This document shows, in pieces, positions 2,195 to 13,288 of a stretch of 48,256 nt of DNA. Made by a program: the position numbers and the translations under genes. The stretch is from Corynebacterium sp. (GTDB taxonomy: Bacteria > Actinomycetota > Actinomycetes > Mycobacteriales > Mycobacteriaceae): assembly GCA_030527885.1 (NCBI GenBank), contig JAUMZY010000014.1, positions 1 to 48,256 on the forward strand, in the 5' to 3' direction. Under the pieces are notes generated by a model. It was not told the DNA's origin, ran no database searches, and was given only the letters and a program-made list of their open reading frames with translations. How positions within the stretch are numbered: position 1 is the stretch's first letter; every line of letters starts with the position of its first letter.

Positions 2195-2280
2195 GGAGGA
2201 TTCGACTAGCGGCCTATGTCACACGCCTGGAACGCGTGCGGGGCTAACGCCCCTCGTGGGTTCAAATCCCACATCCTCCG
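2195..2280 (+). tRNA. tRNA-Ser (GGA anticodon)
   Basis: The 86-base sequence folds as a class II tRNA. The acceptor stem GGAGGAT pairs with ATCCTCC and leaves discriminator G. The anticodon arm is CACGC-CTGGAAC-GCGTG, giving anticodon GGA. A long variable arm (GGGGCTAACGCCCC) and the T arm GTGGG-TTCAAAT-CCCAC follow. CCA is not encoded. Confidence 0.95.
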
Positions 2281-2291
2281 CTTTTGGAAAA

Positions 2292-2437: not shown

Positions 2438-3067
2438 TTAAAGCGCCGCAATCCTGGCGTACATCTTCTGAAATACACGATGATCAGCATAATTCGGGTG
2501 CCGCATTGATAGCTGTGAGGCGAATTCTATGACGCGGCTCGTGATGGACTCAAAATTGAGGTCAATGCCAGCCTGCTCCGCTATTGCATCCATGAACACC
2601 CGTGTGGATCGCCCATTACCTTCCCGAAATGGATGCGCATAATTGAGTGTGGAATGGATTTGGGCGAGCATTGTTATTTTGTCTTCCATACTCAAATTTG
2701 GGGCTTCTTCAAGGAGGTAGCTAACAAAAGTCTGCGCTTCGGCCACCATGTCGGGAATGTCTTCATGGTGGCAAAAAACACTTACTCCCTCCGGGTGGAA
2801 TGGATTGTCCTTACCCATATCAACGTTGCGAAACTCCCCAGCCCATTCGTAGCAATCCTGGAAAAGGTGAAAATGAATCGCCTTCACATGATCAACCAAC
2901 AGGCCCTGGCGAAAATCCAATTCGGGTAATGCTGCGACCCGGGTGAGAGTGTAAATTTTTCCATAGCTAACCAGGCTTCTGGGCTGGTAATACCCATCTT
3001 TATTCCGTAAAACGTTTGTCCCTGAATGCAGATAGGCGTTCCATCGTTCTTCTTCGGTATCCGTCAT
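2438..3067 (-). CDS. Fic-family toxin, cassette 1
   Basis: This 209-residue protein carries the full Fic core HPFREGNGRSTR, with catalytic His, the acidic metal ligand and both arginines. Fic enzymes use this loop to transfer AMP, or another phosphoryl group, from a nucleotide to hydroxyl side chains of target proteins. Upstream is the conserved GEFRNVDMGKDNPFHP segment, which fits the target-docking flap. The start ATG overlaps the stop of the small upstream gene by four bases, a typical antitoxin-toxin coupling. It is the first of four tandem paralogous cassettes. The toxin looks catalytically competent, but its antitoxin has lost the inhibitory glutamate. Confidence 0.9.
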   Translation of the reverse strand: MTDTEEERWNAYLHSGTNVLRNKDGYYQPRSLVSYGKIYTLTRVAALPELDFRQGLLVDHVKAIHFHLFQDCYEWAGEFRNVDMGKDNPFHPEGVSVFCHHEDIPDMVAEAQTFVSYLLEEAPNLSMEDKITMLAQIHSTLNYAHPFREGNGRSTRVFMDAIAEQAGIDLNFESITSRVIEFASQLSMRHPNYADHRVFQKMYARIAAL

Positions 3068-3279
3068 GATTCCTGCTGCTCTGCTTTATACCGACGGGCT
3101 TTTTCTTTAACTTCTGCTATCGCCTCTTCTTCAGTCATAAGCCCCAAAGTAATTTGGACCATCCGGTCAATGTTGATATCAGTGAGAGGCATTCCCGCCA
3201 TGGCCCAGGATGCTGCACCATTCCGCAATTTCCTTTTTTGCCGAGGTGTAAGACGCTCATCGTCAAAATTTAGCAACAT
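3064..3279 (-). CDS. VbhA-like antitoxin, cassette 1, inhibitory Glu replaced by Ala
   Basis: This is a 71-residue protein that begins MLLNFDDERLTPRQKRKLR. The middle resembles the VbhA-type antitoxin helix, whose motif (S/T)xxxE(G/N) inserts a glutamate into the Fic ATP site. Here the motif reads SWAMAG, so the glutamate position is Ala. The C-terminal part GLMTEEEAIAEV matches the end of the family. It lies immediately upstream of, and overlaps, the Fic toxin gene. The ribosome-binding site is AAGGAAGG. Either this cassette is restrained by another antitoxin or the pair has diverged in mechanism. Confidence 0.8.
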   Translation of the reverse strand: MLLNFDDERLTPRQKRKLRNGAASWAMAGMPLTDINIDRMVQITLGLMTEEEAIAEVKEKARRYKAEQQES

Positions 3280-3352
3280 GTTATAGCCTTCCTTGTGCTT
3301 GTCAGCAGCAGTTTCCTGGCAGCAGCATGGGCTGGTGGCTGCTTTCTTTTGC

Positions 3353-3368
3353 TCTGAATTTATCGTGA
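3353..3368 (-). promoter_or_regulatory. Candidate shared operator/promoter of Fic cassette 1
   Basis: TCTGAATTTATCGTGA is a diverged copy of the near-palindrome found upstream of cassettes 3 and 4, about 75-90 bases from the antitoxin start. Conservation among paralogous leaders is the only evidence. Confidence 0.3.
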
Positions 3369-3447
3369 ATATGTAGTGTCACATCTTTGCTGTCACTGGT
3401 GTGGCCAATATAGTGTGGCCAACGGTGTTGCCACCATGGCAATTACC

Positions 3448-4092
3448 CTAATCCCGCTCTACGATCGGCTTTGCGATTTTGGCATACAGTTCTTCAACCG
3501 GATGATAATGAACATGACCGCGCTGACTCATTGACGATTGTGCGGCAGAAATTATTTCTTCCTTCGTAATCAACCCGAAATCCAGCTCAATGCCAACATA
3601 TTCCGCCATTGCCTCCATAAGCACCCGTGTAGACCGCCCATTCCCCTCCCGAAATGGGTGGGCAAAATCTAGCACAGCATGGAACCGGGCAAGTAGCGTT
3701 ATCTTCTCTTCCGTGCTCAAACTCGAAGCCTCTTGAACCAGACGATCATTGAGAGTCTGCAAATCTGTCAGCACGTAGGGGATCCGGTCGTGGTCGCAAA
3801 AGAAATTGAAACCCTCCAGGTGGAATGGATTATTCTTCCCCATATCAACGTTGCGGAACTTACCAGCCCACCCATAACAGTCTTGAAAAAGATAGAAATG
3901 AATGGCCTTCATATTGTTCAGCACTGAGTTTTGTTGAACATCCAGGTCTGGTAACGTCGCAGCCCGATTAAGGGTGTAATCCTGCTCTGCAGCTGCCCAT
4001 GCATCGCCATCAGTAATGTCTTTTTTATTTCGTAGAACGTGGGTTCCCTCATATAGGTACGCATTCCACCGTTGTTGTTGACTCTGTACCAC
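3448..4092 (-). CDS. Fic-family toxin, cassette 2
   Basis: This 214-residue Fic protein has the intact core HPFREGNGRSTR and the flap-like GKFRNVDMGKNNPFHLEG. The chosen start is a GTG eleven bases after the upstream antitoxin stop, with AGGTAA before it. It is a paralog of the other three toxins and, with its antitoxin retaining the inhibitory glutamate, forms the most canonical pair with cassette 3. The likely activity is nucleotidylylation of host proteins; the target cannot be read from sequence. Confidence 0.88.
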   Translation of the reverse strand: MVQSQQQRWNAYLYEGTHVLRNKKDITDGDAWAAAEQDYTLNRAATLPDLDVQQNSVLNNMKAIHFYLFQDCYGWAGKFRNVDMGKNNPFHLEGFNFFCDHDRIPYVLTDLQTLNDRLVQEASSLSTEEKITLLARFHAVLDFAHPFREGNGRSTRVLMEAMAEYVGIELDFGLITKEEIISAAQSSMSQRGHVHYHPVEELYAKIAKPIVERD

Positions 4093-4103
4093 TTCGTTAC
4101 CTA

Positions 4104-4319
4104 TCAGGATTCTTGCTGCTTAGCTTGATTTTTATGGACTTGGGCATCAACCTCTGCGGTGGCTTCTTCCGGGGTGATGAGCCCAAGCGTAAGCCTGACC
4201 ATCCGGTCAATATTGACGTTGGTAGGGGGCATATTCTCTACCGTCCACGATGCCGCGATGTTCCGCAGCCGCCGCTTTTGCCTGGCGGTGAGGCGTTCGT
4301 CGTCGAAATTTAACAACAT
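4104..4319 (-). CDS. VbhA-like antitoxin, cassette 2 (canonical SxxxEN)
   Basis: This 71-residue protein begins MLLNFDDERLTARQKRRLRN. The inhibitory helix reads SWTVEN and matches (S/T)xxxE(G/N), so it should obstruct the Fic active site in the known way. The C-terminal GLITPEEATAEV segment is shared with the other copies. I chose the ATG at 4317-4319 because all four paralogs begin at MLLN/VLLD and AAAAGGATA lies just upstream; the frame is open further upstream, but that extension has no family support. Confidence 0.85.
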   Translation of the reverse strand: MLLNFDDERLTARQKRRLRNIAASWTVENMPPTNVNIDRMVRLTLGLITPEEATAEVDAQVHKNQAKQQES

Positions 4320-4470
4320 ACTGTCATATCCTTTTACACTCATCAGCAGTATTGCTTGGTGCCCTGACCAGCCACACAGCCATAGGCGATCTAGATAATC
4401 ATGTGTCAAACAACATGATTTTTGCAGGCTCTGGTTCCGGGGTTCTCGGCACCGATAGTTATACCGATAG

Positions 4471-5097
4471 TTATGCTGCAATTTTGGCGTATAGCTCTTC
4501 AAAAGGCAGGGGCTTGAAGCCCTCAGGTTGGGCCATGGACTTTTGGGAAACAGCGATCATTTCATCGCCGTCAATCAGCCCGAAGTTGAGGTCAATACCA
4601 ACGTGTTCAGCTATTTCCTCCATGAAGGCGCGTGTGAAGCGCCCGTTGCCTTCGCGGAATGGGTGCGCAAAATTTAAGGCGGCGTGGAGCTGGGCCAGCA
4701 TCTTTATTTTCGCTTCTGCGCTCAAGCTAGGGGCTTGTTCAACGAGGGCATCACTGATTTTTTGCGCTTTCGACAGCTCGTCGGGGATTTTGTCGTAGTC
4801 GCAGAAGAAGCCGAAAAGCCCAGGATGGAACGGATTGCTCTTGCCCATATCAACATTGCGAAACTCCCCGGCCCATTCGTAGCAGTCTTGGAAGAGATAG
4901 AAATGAACAGCCTTGAGATTTTCAACTAATGAGCCTGGGCGGAAATCCAACTCCGGCAGTGTGGCAAATCGGCTACTGGTATAGTCTCGTTCTTTCCCGT
5001 GCCATGTTGCTTTATAGCGAATGTCCTTTTTATTCCGTAGAACGGCTGAGTCCTCATACAGGTAGGCGCTCCACCGCTTTTCTTCATCATCTGTCAT
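4471..5097 (-). CDS. Fic-family toxin, cassette 3
   Basis: This 208-residue Fic protein has the core HPFREGNGRFTR. All catalytic positions are kept; only the variable residue after GR is Phe instead of Ser. The flap-like GEFRNVDMGKSNPFHP is present. It starts 23 bases after the antitoxin stop. Together with cassette 2 it is one of two pairs whose antitoxin keeps the inhibitory glutamate. Confidence 0.88.
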   Translation of the reverse strand: MTDDEEKRWSAYLYEDSAVLRNKKDIRYKATWHGKERDYTSSRFATLPELDFRPGSLVENLKAVHFYLFQDCYEWAGEFRNVDMGKSNPFHPGLFGFFCDYDKIPDELSKAQKISDALVEQAPSLSAEAKIKMLAQLHAALNFAHPFREGNGRFTRAFMEEIAEHVGIDLNFGLIDGDEMIAVSQKSMAQPEGFKPLPFEELYAKIAA

Positions 5098-5120
5098 GAT
5101 TCTTGCTACCTTGCTTTGTG

Positions 5121-5309
5121 CTAACGGATTTCGGCGTCAATCTCTGCCACGGCTTCTTCTGGTGTCATGAGCCCTAGAGTGAGCCGGACCATCCGGTCCC
5201 GGTTGCGAGCTGTGAGAGGCATGTCCTCTATGGCCCAGGATGCCGCGCCGCTTCGCAGCCGCCGTTTTTGCCGGGGAGTGAGCCGCTCATCATTGAAATC
5301 TAACAACAC
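5121..5309 (-). CDS. VbhA-like antitoxin, cassette 3 (SxxxED)
   Basis: This is a 62-residue protein. The start is taken as GTG at 5307-5309, giving VLLDFNDERLTPRQKRR, because this aligns with the ATG of the other copies and has AAAAGGAGA upstream. The longer upstream open frame has no family match. The inhibitory helix is SWAIED, so the glutamate is kept and the following residue is Asp. It ends earlier than the other antitoxins, right after GLMTPEEAVAEIDAEIR. Confidence 0.82.
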   Translation of the reverse strand: MLLDFNDERLTPRQKRRLRSGAASWAIEDMPLTARNRDRMVRLTLGLMTPEEAVAEIDAEIR

Positions 5310-5362
5310 GCAATAGTCTCCTTTTCGCTCGTCAATAGCACAGACCAATGGTTGTTTTGTCC

Positions 5363-5378
5363 TATAAATTTTACCATA
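5363..5378 (-). promoter_or_regulatory. Candidate operator/promoter of Fic cassette 3
   Basis: TATAAATTTTACCATA lies upstream of the cassette 3 antitoxin. It corresponds to the palindrome-like site of cassette 4, and both are preceded on the plus strand by similar ATGGTTGTTTTG/ATGGTTGGTTTC sequence, so a conserved control region is likely. Confidence 0.35.
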
Positions 5379-5449
5379 GATACGTAATCCCCTACCGTAA
5401 AAATAATGGCGACACCAGGGCATTTTTCGGCTGGTAGGGTACTAACCTA

Positions 5450-6034
5450 CTAAAGATTGCGCATTGATTTTTGGGAGATATTGTCCATCATGTTCTTCTG
5501 AATCAAACTGAAGTCAAGCTGAACGCCAACATGCCTGGCTGTTGCATCCATGAACGTTTGCGTGGATCGCCCGTTACCACTGCGGAATGGGTGCGCGTAG
5601 TTTAGTGCGGCATGGATCTTGGCGAGCATTGTTGTTTTCTCGTCCATGTTCAAGCTCACGGCACCTGCAATGAGTTGATCGTAGATGCGTTGCAGATCTG
5701 CCAGCACGCCGGGAATTTTTTCATAGTCACAAAAGAAGTTGAATCCTTCAGGGTGGAATGGGTTGTCCTCCCCCATCTCAACATTCCGGAACTCACCGGC
5801 CCACTCGTAGCAATCTTGGAAGAGGTGAAAATGAATGGCCTTGAGGTTATCCGCCGCCGAACTTTGGTAAAAATCTAGCTTCGGCAATGTTGCAGCCCGG
5901 ACGCTGGTATAGGCCCTTTCCTGCGCGCGCCACGTTTCCGGATCGGTGATGCCGTCTTTGTTCCGTAACACATTTGTGCCTTCATACAGGTAAGCAGCCC
6001 ACCGCTGATGCTGGATCCGCGCCTTTTCCTCCAT
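5450..6034 (-). CDS. Fic-like protein, cassette 4, degenerate active site
   Basis: This 194-residue Fic paralog has the core HPFRSGNGRSTQ. The acidic metal-binding position is Ser instead of Glu or Asp, and the last arginine of the motif is Gln. Both are normally needed to hold Mg-nucleotide, so classic AMP transfer is probably lost, although the catalytic His remains. The flap-like GEFRNVEMGEDNPFHP is kept. It begins three bases after the antitoxin stop. The frame is intact, which suggests the protein is still made, perhaps with altered chemistry or as a non-catalytic decoy. Confidence 0.8.
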   Translation of the reverse strand: MEEKARIQHQRWAAYLYEGTNVLRNKDGITDPETWRAQERAYTSVRAATLPKLDFYQSSAADNLKAIHFHLFQDCYEWAGEFRNVEMGEDNPFHPEGFNFFCDYEKIPGVLADLQRIYDQLIAGAVSLNMDEKTTMLAKIHAALNYAHPFRSGNGRSTQTFMDATARHVGVQLDFSLIQKNMMDNISQKSMRNL

Positions 6035-6037
6035 CCA

Positions 6038-6253
6038 TCATGGTTCTTGTTCCTCTTCCCTGGACTGCCGAATTTGGGCCTCGATCTCTGCTATGGCCTC
6101 TTCCTCAGTGATAATCCCCAACATAGTCCTGACCACCCGATCAATCTCTACATCGGTAGGGCGCATTCCTGATATCGCCCAAGACGCTATATTGTTTCGC
6201 AACTGCCATTTCTGCTCAGCTGTGAGACGCTCATCATCAGCATTTAACAACAT
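6038..6253 (-). CDS. VbhA-like antitoxin, cassette 4, inhibitory Glu replaced by Ser
   Basis: This 71-residue protein begins MLLNADDERLTAEQKWQLRN. The inhibitory helix reads SWAISG, so the glutamate of (S/T)xxxE(G/N) is Ser. Its partner toxin also lost active-site residues, so toxin and antitoxin seem to have drifted together. The AAAAGGAAG ribosome-binding site and the MLLN start match the other cassettes. Confidence 0.78.
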   Translation of the reverse strand: MLLNADDERLTAEQKWQLRNNIASWAISGMRPTDVEIDRVVRTMLGIITEEEAIAEIEAQIRQSREEEQEP

Positions 6254-7452: not shown

Positions 7453-7998
7453 TCAGTCATCGCTAGCAAGCTCGATACCAGCACCGAGTTCATCAAGCCG
7501 GTCGATCGTGGAATATTCTCGAAGAATGTTTTTGGAGCCAGGCGTAAGCGCTTCGCCAGGACATAGCCCAAGTTCTTTTCGCACATAAGCTAAGGTCTTG
7601 GCATTAGATCGGACATGATCAGCCAGCACAATCCGGTGCTCAGACTTGAGGTTGTTATCAGTCACAAATCTGTAGTACTCCTGGGCGAGCATGGTTAGCC
7701 CTGGGTTGACGTTATCGGGCCAATCAACGCTGATCTCCATGTCATTTGTGAGCAATAATTTCCCATGTTTATCCCAGTCAATATCAACCCAGAACCGCAC
7801 CACCCATTTATTCGTCTTTGGGTCGAGCCCGTAGGATTCCAGCCGCTTAACCCACTGGTTCTCTGATGTCACGCCCTTATCAACCAGCAGTTTTACATCT
7901 TCTAAATCCCACCCGGCATTGAGAAGTGTCTGCCGAATGTTAATTTGCAGCATGAATAATCTTGCGTATGTTTGCGTTACGGTGAAAACTCTTGCCAT
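7453..7998 (-). CDS. Possible HORMA-domain-like protein in AAA+ cassette
   Basis: This 181-residue soluble protein has an excellent ribosome-binding site (GAGGGAGA, six bases before ATG). The start MARVFTVTQTYARLFMLQI followed by a helix, and later YGLDPKTNKWVVRFWVDIDW, resembles bacterial HORMA family 1 proteins: a short strand and long helix, then a YGF-like strand pair. This is recall of a pattern, not a search result. HORMA proteins wrap around short closure peptides and are remodelled by TRIP13-type AAA+ ATPases. Here the gene follows an AAA+ gene and a protein with repeated short motifs, which fits that logic. No CD-NTase or effector gene of a CBASS system is in the window. The family could also be unrelated. 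Confidence 0.6.
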   Translation of the reverse strand: MARVFTVTQTYARLFMLQINIRQTLLNAGWDLEDVKLLVDKGVTSENQWVKRLESYGLDPKTNKWVVRFWVDIDWDKHGKLLLTNDMEISVDWPDNVNPGLTMLAQEYYRFVTDNNLKSEHRIVLADHVRSNAKTLAYVRKELGLCPGEALTPGSKNILREYSTIDRLDELGAGIELASDD

Positions 7999-8183
7999 GA
8001 TTCTCCCTCGATTTCGTTGTTGATGTGTCGTGGTACTACTCGTGCTTTAGGATCAGCTTTTGCTACTGATCCGGTGGCACAATCTACGTGTAGGATTCCA
8101 GCGGTTGAACATATTGGCCTTCTGGTGCCATCTACCAAAACAGCCATGAGCTCTTCCGCTGAGGCGTAGCAGGTTCTGTCCAT
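7999..8183 (-). other. Partial tandem duplication of the AAA gene tail
   Basis: The DNA between the AAA+ gene and the HORMA-like gene repeats the end of the AAA+ gene. Its translation ends ADPKARVVPRHINNEIEGES, which aligns with ADAKAHVLSQHTDNSIAGQS at about residues 285-304 of the AAA+ protein. A start-like context at 8183 (GGGGCAATCATGG) mirrors the real start at 7998 (GGGAGAATCATGG). A unit of about 185 bases containing the AAA+ tail and the next start was duplicated and then diverged. The 68-codon frame here (7977-8183) is probably a remnant, although a short expressed peptide is possible. Confidence 0.65.
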
Positions 8184-9094
8184 GATTGCCCCGCAATGCT
8201 GTTGTCAGTGTGTTGCGACAGCACATGTGCTTTAGCGTCAGCTTCGCTATAGTCTTGCATCAAGTCTTCCTCTTCAAGGAGAACCTCAATGGCTTGCCGT
8301 AGCTGCTGCTCAGTGATGGAAGACTGGGTATCAATTCCATGAATCCGTGCGTGCTTGATGACGCTCCTGTAATCATCGTTCGCCATGATGCTCAGTAGTG
8401 CCTGATCCTCAGCCCGCTGCGCTGCATCCACGAAGAACGCCACAGACTTATCTTCGTGGTCCCTGGCAATTTGTTCGAGGCGCTTAACCGAAATGCTGCG
8501 CAGCCGCCGCTGCAGGATCTGGGCAACATCTTCCGGACTGCTGTCCCAAAAGAATGTTCGGGTTCTGCCAGGTCGCAGCAGTGGGGCGTACAGTTTTTTC
8601 AGATCATTGGCGGTAATGAAGATGCATGGCGCATAGTTGCCGCCGGTTTTTGGTCGGCTGGCCTCATCGCAAATGTGCATCAACTCGCCGAATACCAGCT
8701 GCCGGTTCTCGGTGCTTTGGACCAGTTCACCCCAGTCGCCCAACCCGGCATCTAGGTCGTTGATAACCAATGCGGCTGCCATGTGTTGTTCCAAACGCAT
8801 TTTGTTCTGCAACTCGGTATACACCTGCCGCACCAACTTGGCTGGCTCGTTGGCACGATCACTTTCCAGATCAGAGCTGCTCAACGACTTGACAGTGATA
8901 TTTAATTGTCGCAGTGATTCTGCAAGTTGGAAAGTTTTTCCGGTTCCGGCGGGACCGTGGATTGCCAGGATTGTCGCGGTCCCTTCGGCGCGTAACTTGT
9001 TGCTGTTACGCAACACATGCAGCTTCACTTCGTTAAAGAAGTAATCGGAAATGTAGGGATTAGTTTTCGTTAAAGTAGCCTGTCTGGCGGGCAT
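8132..9094 (-). CDS. AAA+ ATPase resembling the Rubisco activase (Rca) module
   Basis: This is a 320-residue AAA+ protein. Walker A is GPAGTGKT (47-54), Walker B ALVINDLD (108-115), sensor 1 FITAND (about 159-164) and the arginine finger region LLRPGR (172-177). The order INDLDAG, an NxQxxxxxLM-type helix, ITANDLKKLYAPLLRPGR and FFWDSSPED follows the Rca signature FINDLDAG, GNDFSTLYAPLIRDGR and FYWAPTRED closely. No Rubisco is in the window, so another client is expected. The C-terminal tail is acidic and ends SSWLFW. The start overlaps the upstream acidic gene by 35 bases. It probably remodels the HORMA-like protein or the acidic partner; that is inference from context. Confidence 0.85.
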   Translation of the reverse strand: MPARQATLTKTNPYISDYFFNEVKLHVLRNSNKLRAEGTATILAIHGPAGTGKTFQLAESLRQLNITVKSLSSSDLESDRANEPAKLVRQVYTELQNKMRLEQHMAAALVINDLDAGLGDWGELVQSTENRQLVFGELMHICDEASRPKTGGNYAPCIFITANDLKKLYAPLLRPGRTRTFFWDSSPEDVAQILQRRLRSISVKRLEQIARDHEDKSVAFFVDAAQRAEDQALLSIMANDDYRSVIKHARIHGIDTQSSITEQQLRQAIEVLLEEEDLMQDYSEADAKAHVLSQHTDNSIAGQSWTEPATPQRKSSWLFW

Positions 9095-9593
9095 AGTCCA
9101 TCATACTTTCGATTTGGTTGAAGAATTCACGGGGCGCTTGACCGCGATGTAGCTCGCCGTCTTGCCACTGTACGGTTTCTTCCAGATTTTCGGGGGAATC
9201 GTCATGCGCATCTAGAAGCAGTGTTGGCTGCATATCCGGTTCTGGGTATCCGTTCCCTTGTGGGGCTTCTTGGATTTCCAGTTCCGAATCCACCCAGGGC
9301 TGCGGTTCCGATGCGGGAATGTTCTCTGTTGAATTTTCATCATCGGGGTACAGCTTAGTTTCGAGATCTGGATCCACCCAGGGAGTTGGGGCATTATCCC
9401 CACTCGCTTCTACCTCGGGGTTTTGCTCTTCCGTCTCATCCGGCATCATTGCTGTTGGCTCGACGGTGAGCTCGGGATCCACCCAGGGCTGTGGTGAATC
9501 ATTGTCCAAAATCTTTGTTTCGTCGATTTCCGTTGGCTCCAGCTCACTGGTTACTTCCGCGTCAATTGCTGGTGGCTCTTGGTTATTGTCCAC
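9060..9593 (-). CDS. Acidic protein with repeated PWVD linear motifs
   Basis: This 177-residue, very acidic and probably disordered protein has no signal peptide. The motif PWVD(P/S)(E/D)L occurs at about residues 36-42, 71-77 and 99-105, and a diverged QWQDGEL lies at 142-148. Each is preceded by a short Asp/Ser/Pro-rich run, so the units are spaced by roughly 30-40 residues. The end (REFFNQIESMMDYARQTGYF) looks like a folded helix. It is the first gene of the operon with the AAA+ and HORMA-like genes. Repeated short motifs joined by disordered linkers suggest multivalent docking, perhaps closure-type peptides. I recognise no known family. Confidence 0.8.
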   Translation of the reverse strand: MDNNQEPPAIDAEVTSELEPTEIDETKILDNDSPQPWVDPELTVEPTAMMPDETEEQNPEVEASGDNAPTPWVDPDLETKLYPDDENSTENIPASEPQPWVDSELEIQEAPQGNGYPEPDMQPTLLLDAHDDSPENLEETVQWQDGELHRGQAPREFFNQIESMMDYARQTGYFNEN

Positions 9594-10753: not shown

Positions 10754-12217
10754 GTGGCTCTTATGCCCAATAATGAATTTGGTGACTTCCAAACGCCGCT
10801 GCCGTTGGCCCGGCGCTGCCTGGAAGTGTTGGGGTTGCCGCGACATGAAGCGGTGCGGGTGTTGGAGCCCACGTGCGGCACGGGCACGTTTTTGCGGGCC
10901 GCGCAGGAGCATAACCCCAGTTCAGAGCGGTTTGGGTTGGAGATCAATGCGGAGTATGCGGCGACGGCGCAACAATATGGCACGGTGCTGCAGGCGGATG
11001 CGTTTTCTTACCAGTTCACGGATGTTCCTTGGCGGGGTGCGGCGCCGTTGTTTGTGGTTGGTAATCCCCCGTGGGTGACGGCTGCGGAGTTGCGGCGGTT
11101 GGGGTCGCAGAATGTGCCGCAGAAGGTGAATTTCAAGGGGGCGCGGGGTATTGATGCGCTGCTGGGCTCGTCGAATTTTGATGTGTGTGAGTATATTATC
11201 CGGAAAATCGTGACTGAGTTTGCAGGCGAAAACATGCGATTGGGTATGTTGTGTAAAACTCATGTGGCGCGGAATATTCTGGCGGAATGCTATCGCGCAA
11301 AGATTCCCATAACGCATGCTACATTGTACCCAATTGATGCGTATTATTGGTTTGATGCCAGGGTTGATGCATGCTGGTTTACGCTCAACATAGACCCGCA
11401 AACAGCAGCTGATTACACCCTCAGCATCCGGGCGGATCTCTTCGATGGGGCGGAAACGCTAGTGCGGCGCAGCGGCATCATTAATGGTACTTTGGTGGCC
11501 GACATTAATGCCTATTCTCCGCTACAGGCGGCGGATGGGGCCTGCCCTTACACGTGGCGTTCCGGCCTGAAGCATGATGCCGTCAAGGTTTTTGAATTTC
11601 AGGCGCGCCCCAACATAGAGCCGGATTACGTCTTTCCGCTGCTCAAAAGCACCGACATATTTCACGGCCAGCAGAAAACCACCCGCCGGTGGATCCTGGT
11701 GCCGCAGAAAACCTTCGGCGAGGACACCGCCCACCTGCGGCGCACCGCCCCGAAGACGTGGCGGTATCTCCTGAAAAACGCCACCATCCTCGATGGCCGC
11801 AAGTCATCTATTTACCGGAATCAGCCGCGGTTTTCCGTCTTTGGGCATGGGGATTACACGTTTGCGCCGCTGAAGGTTGGTTGTTCTGGCATTCACAAGG
11901 AACCCCGGTTTCAGCTGGTCACGCCCATAGATGGCAAACCTGTTGTCCTGAACGACACTTGCTACTTCCTGCCGTTCGACAACAGCACTCATGCCGCCAT
12001 CGTGACCGCGATTCTGCGCAGCCCGGAGTGCCAAGCCTTCATTAATTCCTTGGCGTTCTGGGATTCCAAGCGGCCCATCACGAAGAAGCTTCTGTCCCGC
12101 ATCAACCTGTTCGCACTTCCGTGCGATAGATCCGCCGTGGTGGTTGCGGCTGCGGCGATTGCCGCCGAGGCTGGGGTCCCATTTGATCAGGCCGAAGCCC
12201 TAAACTTCTACTCTTAG
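10754..12217 (+). CDS. Orphan N6-adenine-type DNA methyltransferase
   Basis: This is a 487-residue SAM-dependent methyltransferase. Motif I is VLEPTCGTGTFL (near residues 36-47) and the catalytic motif IV is VVGNPPWV (about 101-108); NPPW is typical of amino-methyltransferases acting on adenine in DNA. The remaining 350 residues probably form the target-recognition region. No restriction gene, specificity subunit or Vsr endonuclease is adjacent, so it is either an orphan or a type IIG-like enzyme without a visible nuclease domain (no PD-ExK is seen at the N-terminus). The start may be GTG 10754 or ATG 10763, and neither has a clear ribosome-binding site. The stop codon lies inside a copy of the dispersed motif. 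Confidence 0.85.
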   Translation: MALMPNNEFGDFQTPLPLARRCLEVLGLPRHEAVRVLEPTCGTGTFLRAAQEHNPSSERFGLEINAEYAATAQQYGTVLQADAFSYQFTDVPWRGAAPLFVVGNPPWVTAAELRRLGSQNVPQKVNFKGARGIDALLGSSNFDVCEYIIRKIVTEFAGENMRLGMLCKTHVARNILAECYRAKIPITHATLYPIDAYYWFDARVDACWFTLNIDPQTAADYTLSIRADLFDGAETLVRRSGIINGTLVADINAYSPLQAADGACPYTWRSGLKHDAVKVFEFQARPNIEPDYVFPLLKSTDIFHGQQKTTRRWILVPQKTFGEDTAHLRRTAPKTWRYLLKNATILDGRKSSIYRNQPRFSVFGHGDYTFAPLKVGCSGIHKEPRFQLVTPIDGKPVVLNDTCYFLPFDNSTHAAIVTAILRSPECQAFINSLAFWDSKRPITKKLLSRINLFALPCDRSAVVVAAAAIAAEAGVPFDQAEALNFYS

Positions 12218-12403: not shown

Positions 12404-13288
12404 CTAAGCCCCCGGCCACACGTAGGGTTCGCGGGGAACGTCGGCGGGCTGGAACTGCTGCAAAAGTTCTGCCGGAGTGTCTGCCTGGTAGCCGAGTGAA
12501 GCGGCGATGTGGGGAAACACGTTGGTCATTTCCCGGAAGGTTACGGCGCCGTCGCGCTTGGCCAGGCGCTTGCCGGCGCTGTTGAGCACCAGCGGCACGT
12601 GCACGTATTCCGGCACCGTAACCCCCAGCAGGTGCGCTAGGTAGGCTTGGCGGGGTGCGGAAGAGAGGAGATCATCGCCGCGAACGACCTGTTCAATGCC
12701 CTGGTGGGCATCATCGACCACCACTGCTAGGTTATAGGCCCAATCGGGGTCAGTGCCGCCGCGCCGCAGGATCATGTCATCCACGTCCCCGGTCACCTCG
12801 CCGGCGTAGAAGTCGTGGATGGTCCATTGGGATGCTTCCGAGCGCAGCCGCAGCGCGGGCACTCTGCCTTGGCCCAACAGTTCGGCGCGTTTGGCTACTC
12901 GTTCGGCTTCGGTGAGGTTGCGGCAGGTGCCGGGGTATTGCCCGGGAATGCTGTGCGGGGCACGGGCGGCTTCCTGAATGTCTTTGCGGGAGCAGTAGCA
13001 TTCATAGTGCGGGAGTTTTATTAACGCCGCAGCGTAGTCTTCAAATCTGCTGGATTGGTAGAGGACGTCACCGTCCCAGTCGAGGCCGAGGGCGGCGAGA
13101 TCCGCCAGCTGGCGGGTGGCGGATTCTTCGGAGGAGCGCCCGGTGTCGATGTCTTCCACCCGCATGTAGAAGGCCCTATTGGTTGTGCGGGCAAACAGCC
13201 AGGCGAGGACGGCGGTGCGCAGGTTGCCAAAGTGCAGATCGCCGCTGGGGCTGGGCGCATATCGGCCTGCGCCTACAAACTTTGTCAT
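12404..13288 (-). CDS. gluQ: Glutamyl-Q tRNA(Asp) synthetase
   Basis: This 294-residue paralog of the glutamyl-tRNA synthetase catalytic core attaches glutamate to the queuosine base of tRNA-Asp. The adenylate-binding signature is HFGN (19-22) in [16 protein letters not shown], and the KMSKS-like loop is KRLAKRD near residue 240. Zinc ligands are visible as C97, C99, Y118 and C122 (ECYCS and QYPGTC). The absence of an anticodon-binding domain and the length fit GluQ rather than GltX. The start ATG at 13288 agrees with family length. It sits beside a queuosine-precursor transporter gene and tgt. Confidence 0.9.

Follow-up and report, generated by a model that had tools for sequence, protein, structure and literature searches.

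We analyzed a group of three adjacent genes in a window of 48,256 nucleotides (nt) from Corynebacterium sp. (contig JAUMZY010000014.1), contig 8 of an assembly of 1.64 Mb with a completeness of 53%. ORF analysis placed three open reading frames (ORFs) on the minus strand, at 9060–9593, 8132–9094 and 7453–7998, confirming the three-gene operon on one strand that an earlier note had read from the DNA. Gene 1 (9060–9593) encodes an acidic low-complexity protein of 177 amino acids (aa) with four W-x-D-x-(E/D)-L motifs, gene 2 (8132–9094) encodes a 320-aa AAA+ ATPase that Pfam, PDB, alignments and an AF2 model assign to the green-type Rubisco activase (Rca) family, and gene 3 (7453–7998) encodes a 181-aa protein, the probable partner or client of the ATPase, for which comparison with a second genome, G848, revealed a similar protein. 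The start codon of gene 1 is GTG, with GGAG upstream, and genes 1 and 2 overlap by 35 nt. The three genes are real and form a small accessory operon.

The protein of gene 1 is strongly acidic, with an isoelectric point of 4.05 and 47 D+E versus 5 K+R. A motif scan located three copies of PWVD(P/S)(E/D)L, all on the minus strand: PWVDPEL at W37 (9468–9488), PWVDPDL at W72 (9363–9383) and PWVDSEL at W100 (9279–9299), followed by a diverged copy, QWQDGEL, at W143 (9150–9170). None of 20000 shuffles of the protein contained at least one exact motif. The acidic, three-plus-one repeat protein described in the earlier note is confirmed. Pfam, PADLOC and PHROGs hold no family for it, NCBIfam gave one weak row (E 1), and viral contigs yielded no relative. 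The WVD in gene 3 (FWVDIDW) was considered as a mimic of this motif and set aside as too weak, since 834 of 20000 gene-3 shuffles contain WVD.

Gene 2 is an AAA+ protein of the green-type Rubisco activase family. Its Pfam AAA match reaches 48.7 bits (cutoff 21.2, E 1.3e-12), its best PDB relatives are the Rcas of Nostoc (E 5.3e-31) and tobacco (E 2.2e-29), and BLASTP against one cyanobacterial Rca gives 132 bits across residues 14–311, the core beginning at nearly the same point as in cyanobacterial Rcas. Walker A, Walker B and the arginine-finger region are present, catalytic and Rca-typical columns are kept in a 28-row alignment, and INDLDAG and TANDLKKLYAPLLRPGR, the segments on which the Rca likeness was first noticed, do align with Rca. 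Rca is also the best fold match of the AF2 model (built from 28 sequences; mean predicted local distance difference test score, pLDDT, 67), a match with a high root-mean-square deviation and with p97 following at most 1.3 Z units behind. In a tree with two FtsH rows as its only outgroup, the Rcas and the AAA proteins of both loci (gene 2 and G848) fall together on one side of a 100/100 branch, FtsH on the other; the order inside the Rca side is poorly resolved, with both of these AAA proteins on long branches that fall neither firmly inside nor firmly outside Rca. In a 30-row tree that includes 27 cyanobacterial and 2 plant Rcas, gene 2 sits on a very long branch far outside them all.

To place gene 2 among its wider relatives, we scanned 84,980 species genomes. 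The gene 2 protein alone found no relative, and Rca-type patterns found 390, of which the best 80 were kept; these are cyanobacterial by title and 29–37% identical to gene 2 in the best segment, and non-cyanobacterial ones are possible among the remaining 310. Identity to Rca relatives over the whole alignment is 27–31%. Viral contigs, plasmids and phages held no relative of gene 2, and a cyanobacterial Rca used as query found none in plasmids or phages. The titles of the best 80 relatives favor the view that gene 2 is a genuine Rubisco activase that came from a cyanobacterium, a reading that we consider scarcely credible given the identity of 29–37%, the very long branch outside plant and cyanobacterial Rcas, a changed pore-loop 2, and the fact that no Rubisco and no SSUL were found. 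Tobacco Rca needs the pore-loop residues A144 and Y188, Y188A being inactive, according to part of the text of PMC5437159; in the alignment A144 is kept as A81 of gene 2 and Y188 of pore-loop 2 is replaced by S127. The G848 AAA keeps the pore-loop-2 tyrosine, and its loss is therefore not a feature of the module. An RbcS-like C-terminal end was seen by eye in 27 of 28 cyanobacterial Rca ORFs inspected (28 of the 80 loci), and gene 2 ends at 320 aa without an SSUL/RbcS-like C-terminal extension. A RuBisCO_large search of 26 genomes gave no match in the own genome, which is 53% complete, or in 15 congeners (0 of 16), and 2 matches, both in genomes of other families; this result favors a client other than Rubisco. 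As far as tested, then, gene 2 appears to be no Rubisco activase.

Gene 3 had been proposed as a possible HORMA domain with gene 2 as a remodeller, and the HORMA part of this proposal was not supported. The profile search found no match to gene 3 at E ≤ 10 in Pfam (which includes bacHORMA_2), PADLOC, NCBIfam or PHROGs, scans in which HMMER filters discard most weak matches. PDB hits stay at noise level (best E 0.65), and viral contigs, plasmids and phages contain no relative. Against a profile of nine Cap7 HORMAs of the cyclic oligonucleotide-based antiphage signaling system (CBASS), hhalign gives gene 3 a probability of 0.3% (E 0.19), with 19 of 60 gene-3 shuffles scoring at least as high, and adding the G848 protein gives 0.1%; in hmmsearch against the nine Cap7 HORMAs, 25 of 200 shuffles outscore gene 3. 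A PF18173 scan of 149 genomes returned no match, controls included, and is uninformative. With four profile libraries negative and both hhalign and hmmsearch at shuffle level, we rejected the HORMA assignment, which is unsupported at the level of sequence. Gene 2 likewise belongs to a different AAA+ branch from the HORMA remodellers: it scores 20 bits by BLASTP against the one TRIP13-position (Cap6-position) CBASS ATPase compared, versus 132 bits to Rca, and a TRIP13-type identity was rejected. The 50 Foldseek and 50 VIA rows listed for gene 2 include no TRIP13 or Cap6 chain, which excludes nothing. A HORMA/TRIP13-like module without nucleotide cyclase, in which gene 3 would wrap PWVD peptides and gene 2 would reset gene 3, would combine repeats, a wrapper and a remodeller in the same way; gene 3 is near Cap7 in size (181 versus 172 aa), and its single-sequence AlphaFold model (pLDDT 41, no fold discernible) leaves room for a highly diverged HORMA. 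Weighed against the missing profile match, the shuffle-level hhalign scores and the Rca-like rather than TRIP13-like AAA+, such a module is very unlikely.

The linkage of the genes was followed through overlapping genome sets of 61 relatives, 242 genus, 396 phylum and 397 order genomes. Gene 2 was matched in 1 of 61 relatives and 1 of 242 genus genomes, both being its own genome, in 3 of 396 phylum genomes (its own and two FtsH), and in 3 of 397 order genomes (its own, G848 at E 1.8e-21, and one unrelated ORF). We discarded the gene-2 matches L002 and L003 as FtsH and L137 as a large regulator-like ORF (by eye). Of 396 genomes searched with gene 3, 35 gave a match at E ≤ 1, its own included, with L085 as the best (E 0.0036); among the ORFs read at L086 and L088, the L086 match was dismissed as an ABC ATPase (by eye), and the IDW-H pattern described below is absent from the gene-3-match loci scanned.

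The G848 genome, from the same order, contains a proline-rich gene, then an Rca-like AAA+ (274 aa, 29% identical to gene 2), then a gene for a 193-aa protein, the AAA+ overlapping the first gene by 4 nt and the third gene overlapping the AAA+ by 1 nt. The third protein and gene 3 align along 59 residues (BLASTP E 6e-4), a segment that includes the motif IDW(D/E)xHxxLL, which starts at residue 73 of 181 in gene 3 (IDWDKH, 7765–7782, minus strand) and at residue 80 of 193 in G848 (IDWERH). When all 42 ORFs from the G848 stretch are compared with gene 3, the top score (47, next 42) goes to the frame containing the third gene, and the IDW-H pattern occurs in an open frame in no other fetched locus (1,605,204 bases). 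Position and motif together make it likely that gene 3 and the G848 third protein are homologous, a relation of which sequence alone is no proof. The conserved linkage sought since the earlier note is thus found in part: an AAA+ with a probable gene-3 relative recurs in G848, and neither gene 2 nor gene 3 was found in 241 congeners. No relative of the G848 AAA was detected in viral contigs, plasmids or phages, and none of the gene-3 pair in viral contigs; the G848 third protein has none in phages and two weak plasmid matches under TraM-domain genes (E 0.2 and 5). PADLOC gave no match for the G848 genes. In this locus (L138) the module is flanked upstream by a TPR (tetratricopeptide repeat) protein (7–1260) and downstream by a SpoIIE/response-regulator gene (7956–9284).

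The explanation that we prefer, tentatively and at a probability of roughly 45%, is an accessory three-gene protein-remodelling module whose motor acts on the product of gene 3 rather than on Rubisco. Gene 2 encodes a motor of the Rca family, presumably a hexamer, whose client would not be Rubisco. Reviews, PMC5437159 among them, propose that the pore loops of Rca-type motors pull on flexible regions of the client. By analogy with Rca, the gene-2 ring may grip a flexible client end in its central pore and pull briefly, which would change the conformation of the client or free a bound partner. The gene-3 protein would most likely be its client or a direct partner, being the only other component with a probable relative found next to a further Rca-like AAA+ outside cyanobacteria. 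Gene 1, a putative flexible, acidic and multivalent tether, would most likely keep several gene-3 proteins or ATPases together. The data directly show the order of the genes, the overlap between genes 1 and 2, the repeated motif, the membership of gene 2 in the Rca family and a partial recurrence in G848; the hexamer, threading, client and tethering, and with them any function in the cell, are what we infer.

A number of observations weigh against this explanation. The arrangement was found in one other genome alone, G848, and its first gene there is low-complexity and proline-rich, with an apparent membrane helix, an uncertain start and no PWVD motif, showing no detectable relation to gene 1 (860 of 3000 shuffles). 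The match between gene 3 and the G848 third protein is weak: its score is reached by 11 of 3000 shuffles and, in a background pool of 1319 ORFs that includes loci fetched for resemblance to gene 3, by 6 ORFs against the G848 protein and 20 against gene 3, and when the 62 window ORFs are compared with the G848 third protein, gene 3 ties with one other at 47 each. In pairwise comparison the G848 AAA reaches 109 bits with a cyanobacterial Rca and 94 bits with gene 2, and the two module AAAs are joined in 1% of 200 bootstrap trees. A search of 15 further genomes from the genus of G848 gave weak matches alone, to long AAA+ ORFs (27–31% identity, 726–832 aa), and the module is therefore sporadic there too. 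A search for a promoter-like site on the minus strand found none. The lack of a Rubisco match, too, was observed in an own genome that is 53% complete.

The DNA that separates gene 2 from gene 3, overlooked in the earlier note, contains a 68-aa ORF (7977–8183, minus strand) that is probably a remnant of a tandem duplicate, comprising the AAA tail and part of gene 3, and no separate gene. The end of this ORF copies the C-terminal tail of the AAA (7989–8057, minus strand; BLASTP E 4e-7, 0 of 2000 shuffles as good), immediately before the start of gene 3. Ahead of the tail copy, a peptide out of frame with the ORF (8090–8130, minus strand) resembles gene 3 residues 45–55 (1 of 2000 shuffles); shuffles at the DNA level gave 1 of 1000 for the tail copy and 4 of 1000 for the gene-3-like stretch. 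Read in its own frame, the ORF is unlike gene 3 (1978 of 2000 shuffles), and its codon profile has a lower GC content at third than at second codon positions (GC3 and GC2). The idea of a real gene was dropped in view of the tail copy, the out-of-frame stretch and the codon profile, which point to a remnant. The simplest account of these similarities is that the AAA tail and gene 3 were probably duplicated in tandem and the first gene-3 copy was largely lost; the duplicated stretch spans both AAA-tail and gene-3 sequence, and the gene order would therefore predate the duplication. Such a decayed duplicate, together with presence in 1 of 242 genus genomes, would also suit a decaying insertion without present function. 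Three intact ORFs, conserved catalytic residues in the AAA+ and recurrence in G848 speak against that view, which we regard as rather improbable.

The operon lies between tRNA-Ser(GGA) (2195–2281, plus strand) and gluQRS (12404–13288, minus strand), 10,123 bp apart in this genome. We compared 20 regions of relatives, picked via the neighboring aspartate aminotransferase. The distance between the borders ranges from 950 to 12,120 bp in 15 of the 20; in L104, L107, L113, L118 and L123 one or both borders lie outside the compared stretch. At a tblastn cutoff of 1e-4, none of these regions has a relative of any of the three operon genes, of three among the four neighboring Fic proteins or of a methyltransferase-like gene. 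The differing distances and the lack of cargo relatives in the 20 regions therefore mark a variable accessory spot, of which the tRNA gene and gluQRS are the opposite borders. The cargo between them differs in relatives, and long ORFs of L112 resemble a defence cluster by eye.

This setting bears on whether the operon is an anti-phage or conflict module, in which the AAA+ would be a threshold or sensor, gene 3 an effector, and gene 1 an inhibitor or bait. Sporadic occurrence and a variable tRNA-side spot beside four pairs of Fic and small genes fit such a role, and chaperone-thresholded conflict systems are known, as described in part of PMC7159879. PADLOC, in contrast, has no match for genes 1 and 3 or for the G848 genes, and weak generic matches alone for the AAA (best E 0.0003); no recognizable effector domain was seen, and the G848 neighbors scanned include a GNAT and an M28 peptidase, with no Fic among them. 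We judge this reading unlikely but deserving of attention, and it is compatible with the remodelling module, being about purpose and not mechanism. Acting against phages is a possibility that the PADLOC comparisons do not directly support.

The neighbors themselves have several features. Four tandem Fic genes at 2438–6253 are 70–74% alike in DNA over their aligned stretches, each is preceded by a small gene, and two of the Fic proteins have VbhT-type matches that stay under the cut-off. The small genes presumably encode a VbhA-like region. The Fic pair at 5450–6253 deviates from the consensus in both genes. The methyltransferase-like gene (10754–12217, 487 aa) has weak profile matches alone (MAD2 9e-5 over residues 8–57, far below cut-off), and no CD-NTase family was found among the neighboring genes scanned. 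The 13-mer GGCGTCGAAAAGC has 109 copies in the genome, against 1 for a reversed control, and 11 exact copies in the window, at positions that include 2326, 2380, 6359, 10713, 12217 and 12385; its genome-wide occurrence and presence inside the island argue against a misplaced contig. It occurs in 23 of 37 genomes: counts within the genus reach 89 in one congener, three congeners have none, and genomes outside the genus have 0–2. It is a possible uptake-like or terminator-like motif.

If gene 2 is the motor of a remodelling module, the Rca motor family may do jobs other than helping photosynthesis. Rca is described as beginning in cyanobacteria (in part of PMC9951593), and general chaperone machinery is named as the source from which the activase classes were recruited (in part of PMC5437159). 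We raise the possibility, doubtful at present, that Rca is one branch of an older and wider family of client-specific motors, with actinobacterial modules carrying an IDW-H client and a flexible tether, and that cyanobacteria recruited one such motor for Rubisco. An Rca relative free of Rubisco and with its own operon would be a possible outgroup, perhaps with the ancestral client type, that could let the origin of crop-relevant Rca be tested directly, and it would extend the remodelling modules known in bacteria by a new one. Among the open-licence papers listed on Rca-like proteins in actinobacteria or other bacteria and on Rca evolution, none describes this module by its title and the start of its abstract.

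Compared with known systems, gene 2 has in common with the green-type Rca of cyanobacteria and plants the AAA+ core, the Rca-typical columns and similarity through residue 311; it differs in the replaced pore-loop-2 tyrosine, the missing SSUL extension, the very long branch, the lack of any Rubisco found and its place in an operon with two unrelated genes. Type III CBASS, with its HORMA protein and TRIP13-like ATPase (Cap7/Cap6), shares the idea of a peptide, a binder and an AAA+ remodeller, whereas here the AAA+ belongs to another branch, no cyclase lies among the scanned neighbors and gene 3 is no HORMA by sequence. In beta-carboxysomes, CcmM tethers Rubisco multivalently by SSUL modules, as described in part of PMC8580825. 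No SSUL modules or Rubisco were found here, and the likeness to this scaffold with Rubisco and Rca, an analogy only, lies in repeated binding modules, flexible linkers and an Rca-family motor. The G848 locus, whose first gene is proline-rich with an apparent membrane helix and whose AAA stands apart from gene 2 in the tree, shares the gene order, the overlaps, the Rca-like AAA+ and an IDW-H third protein of similar size.

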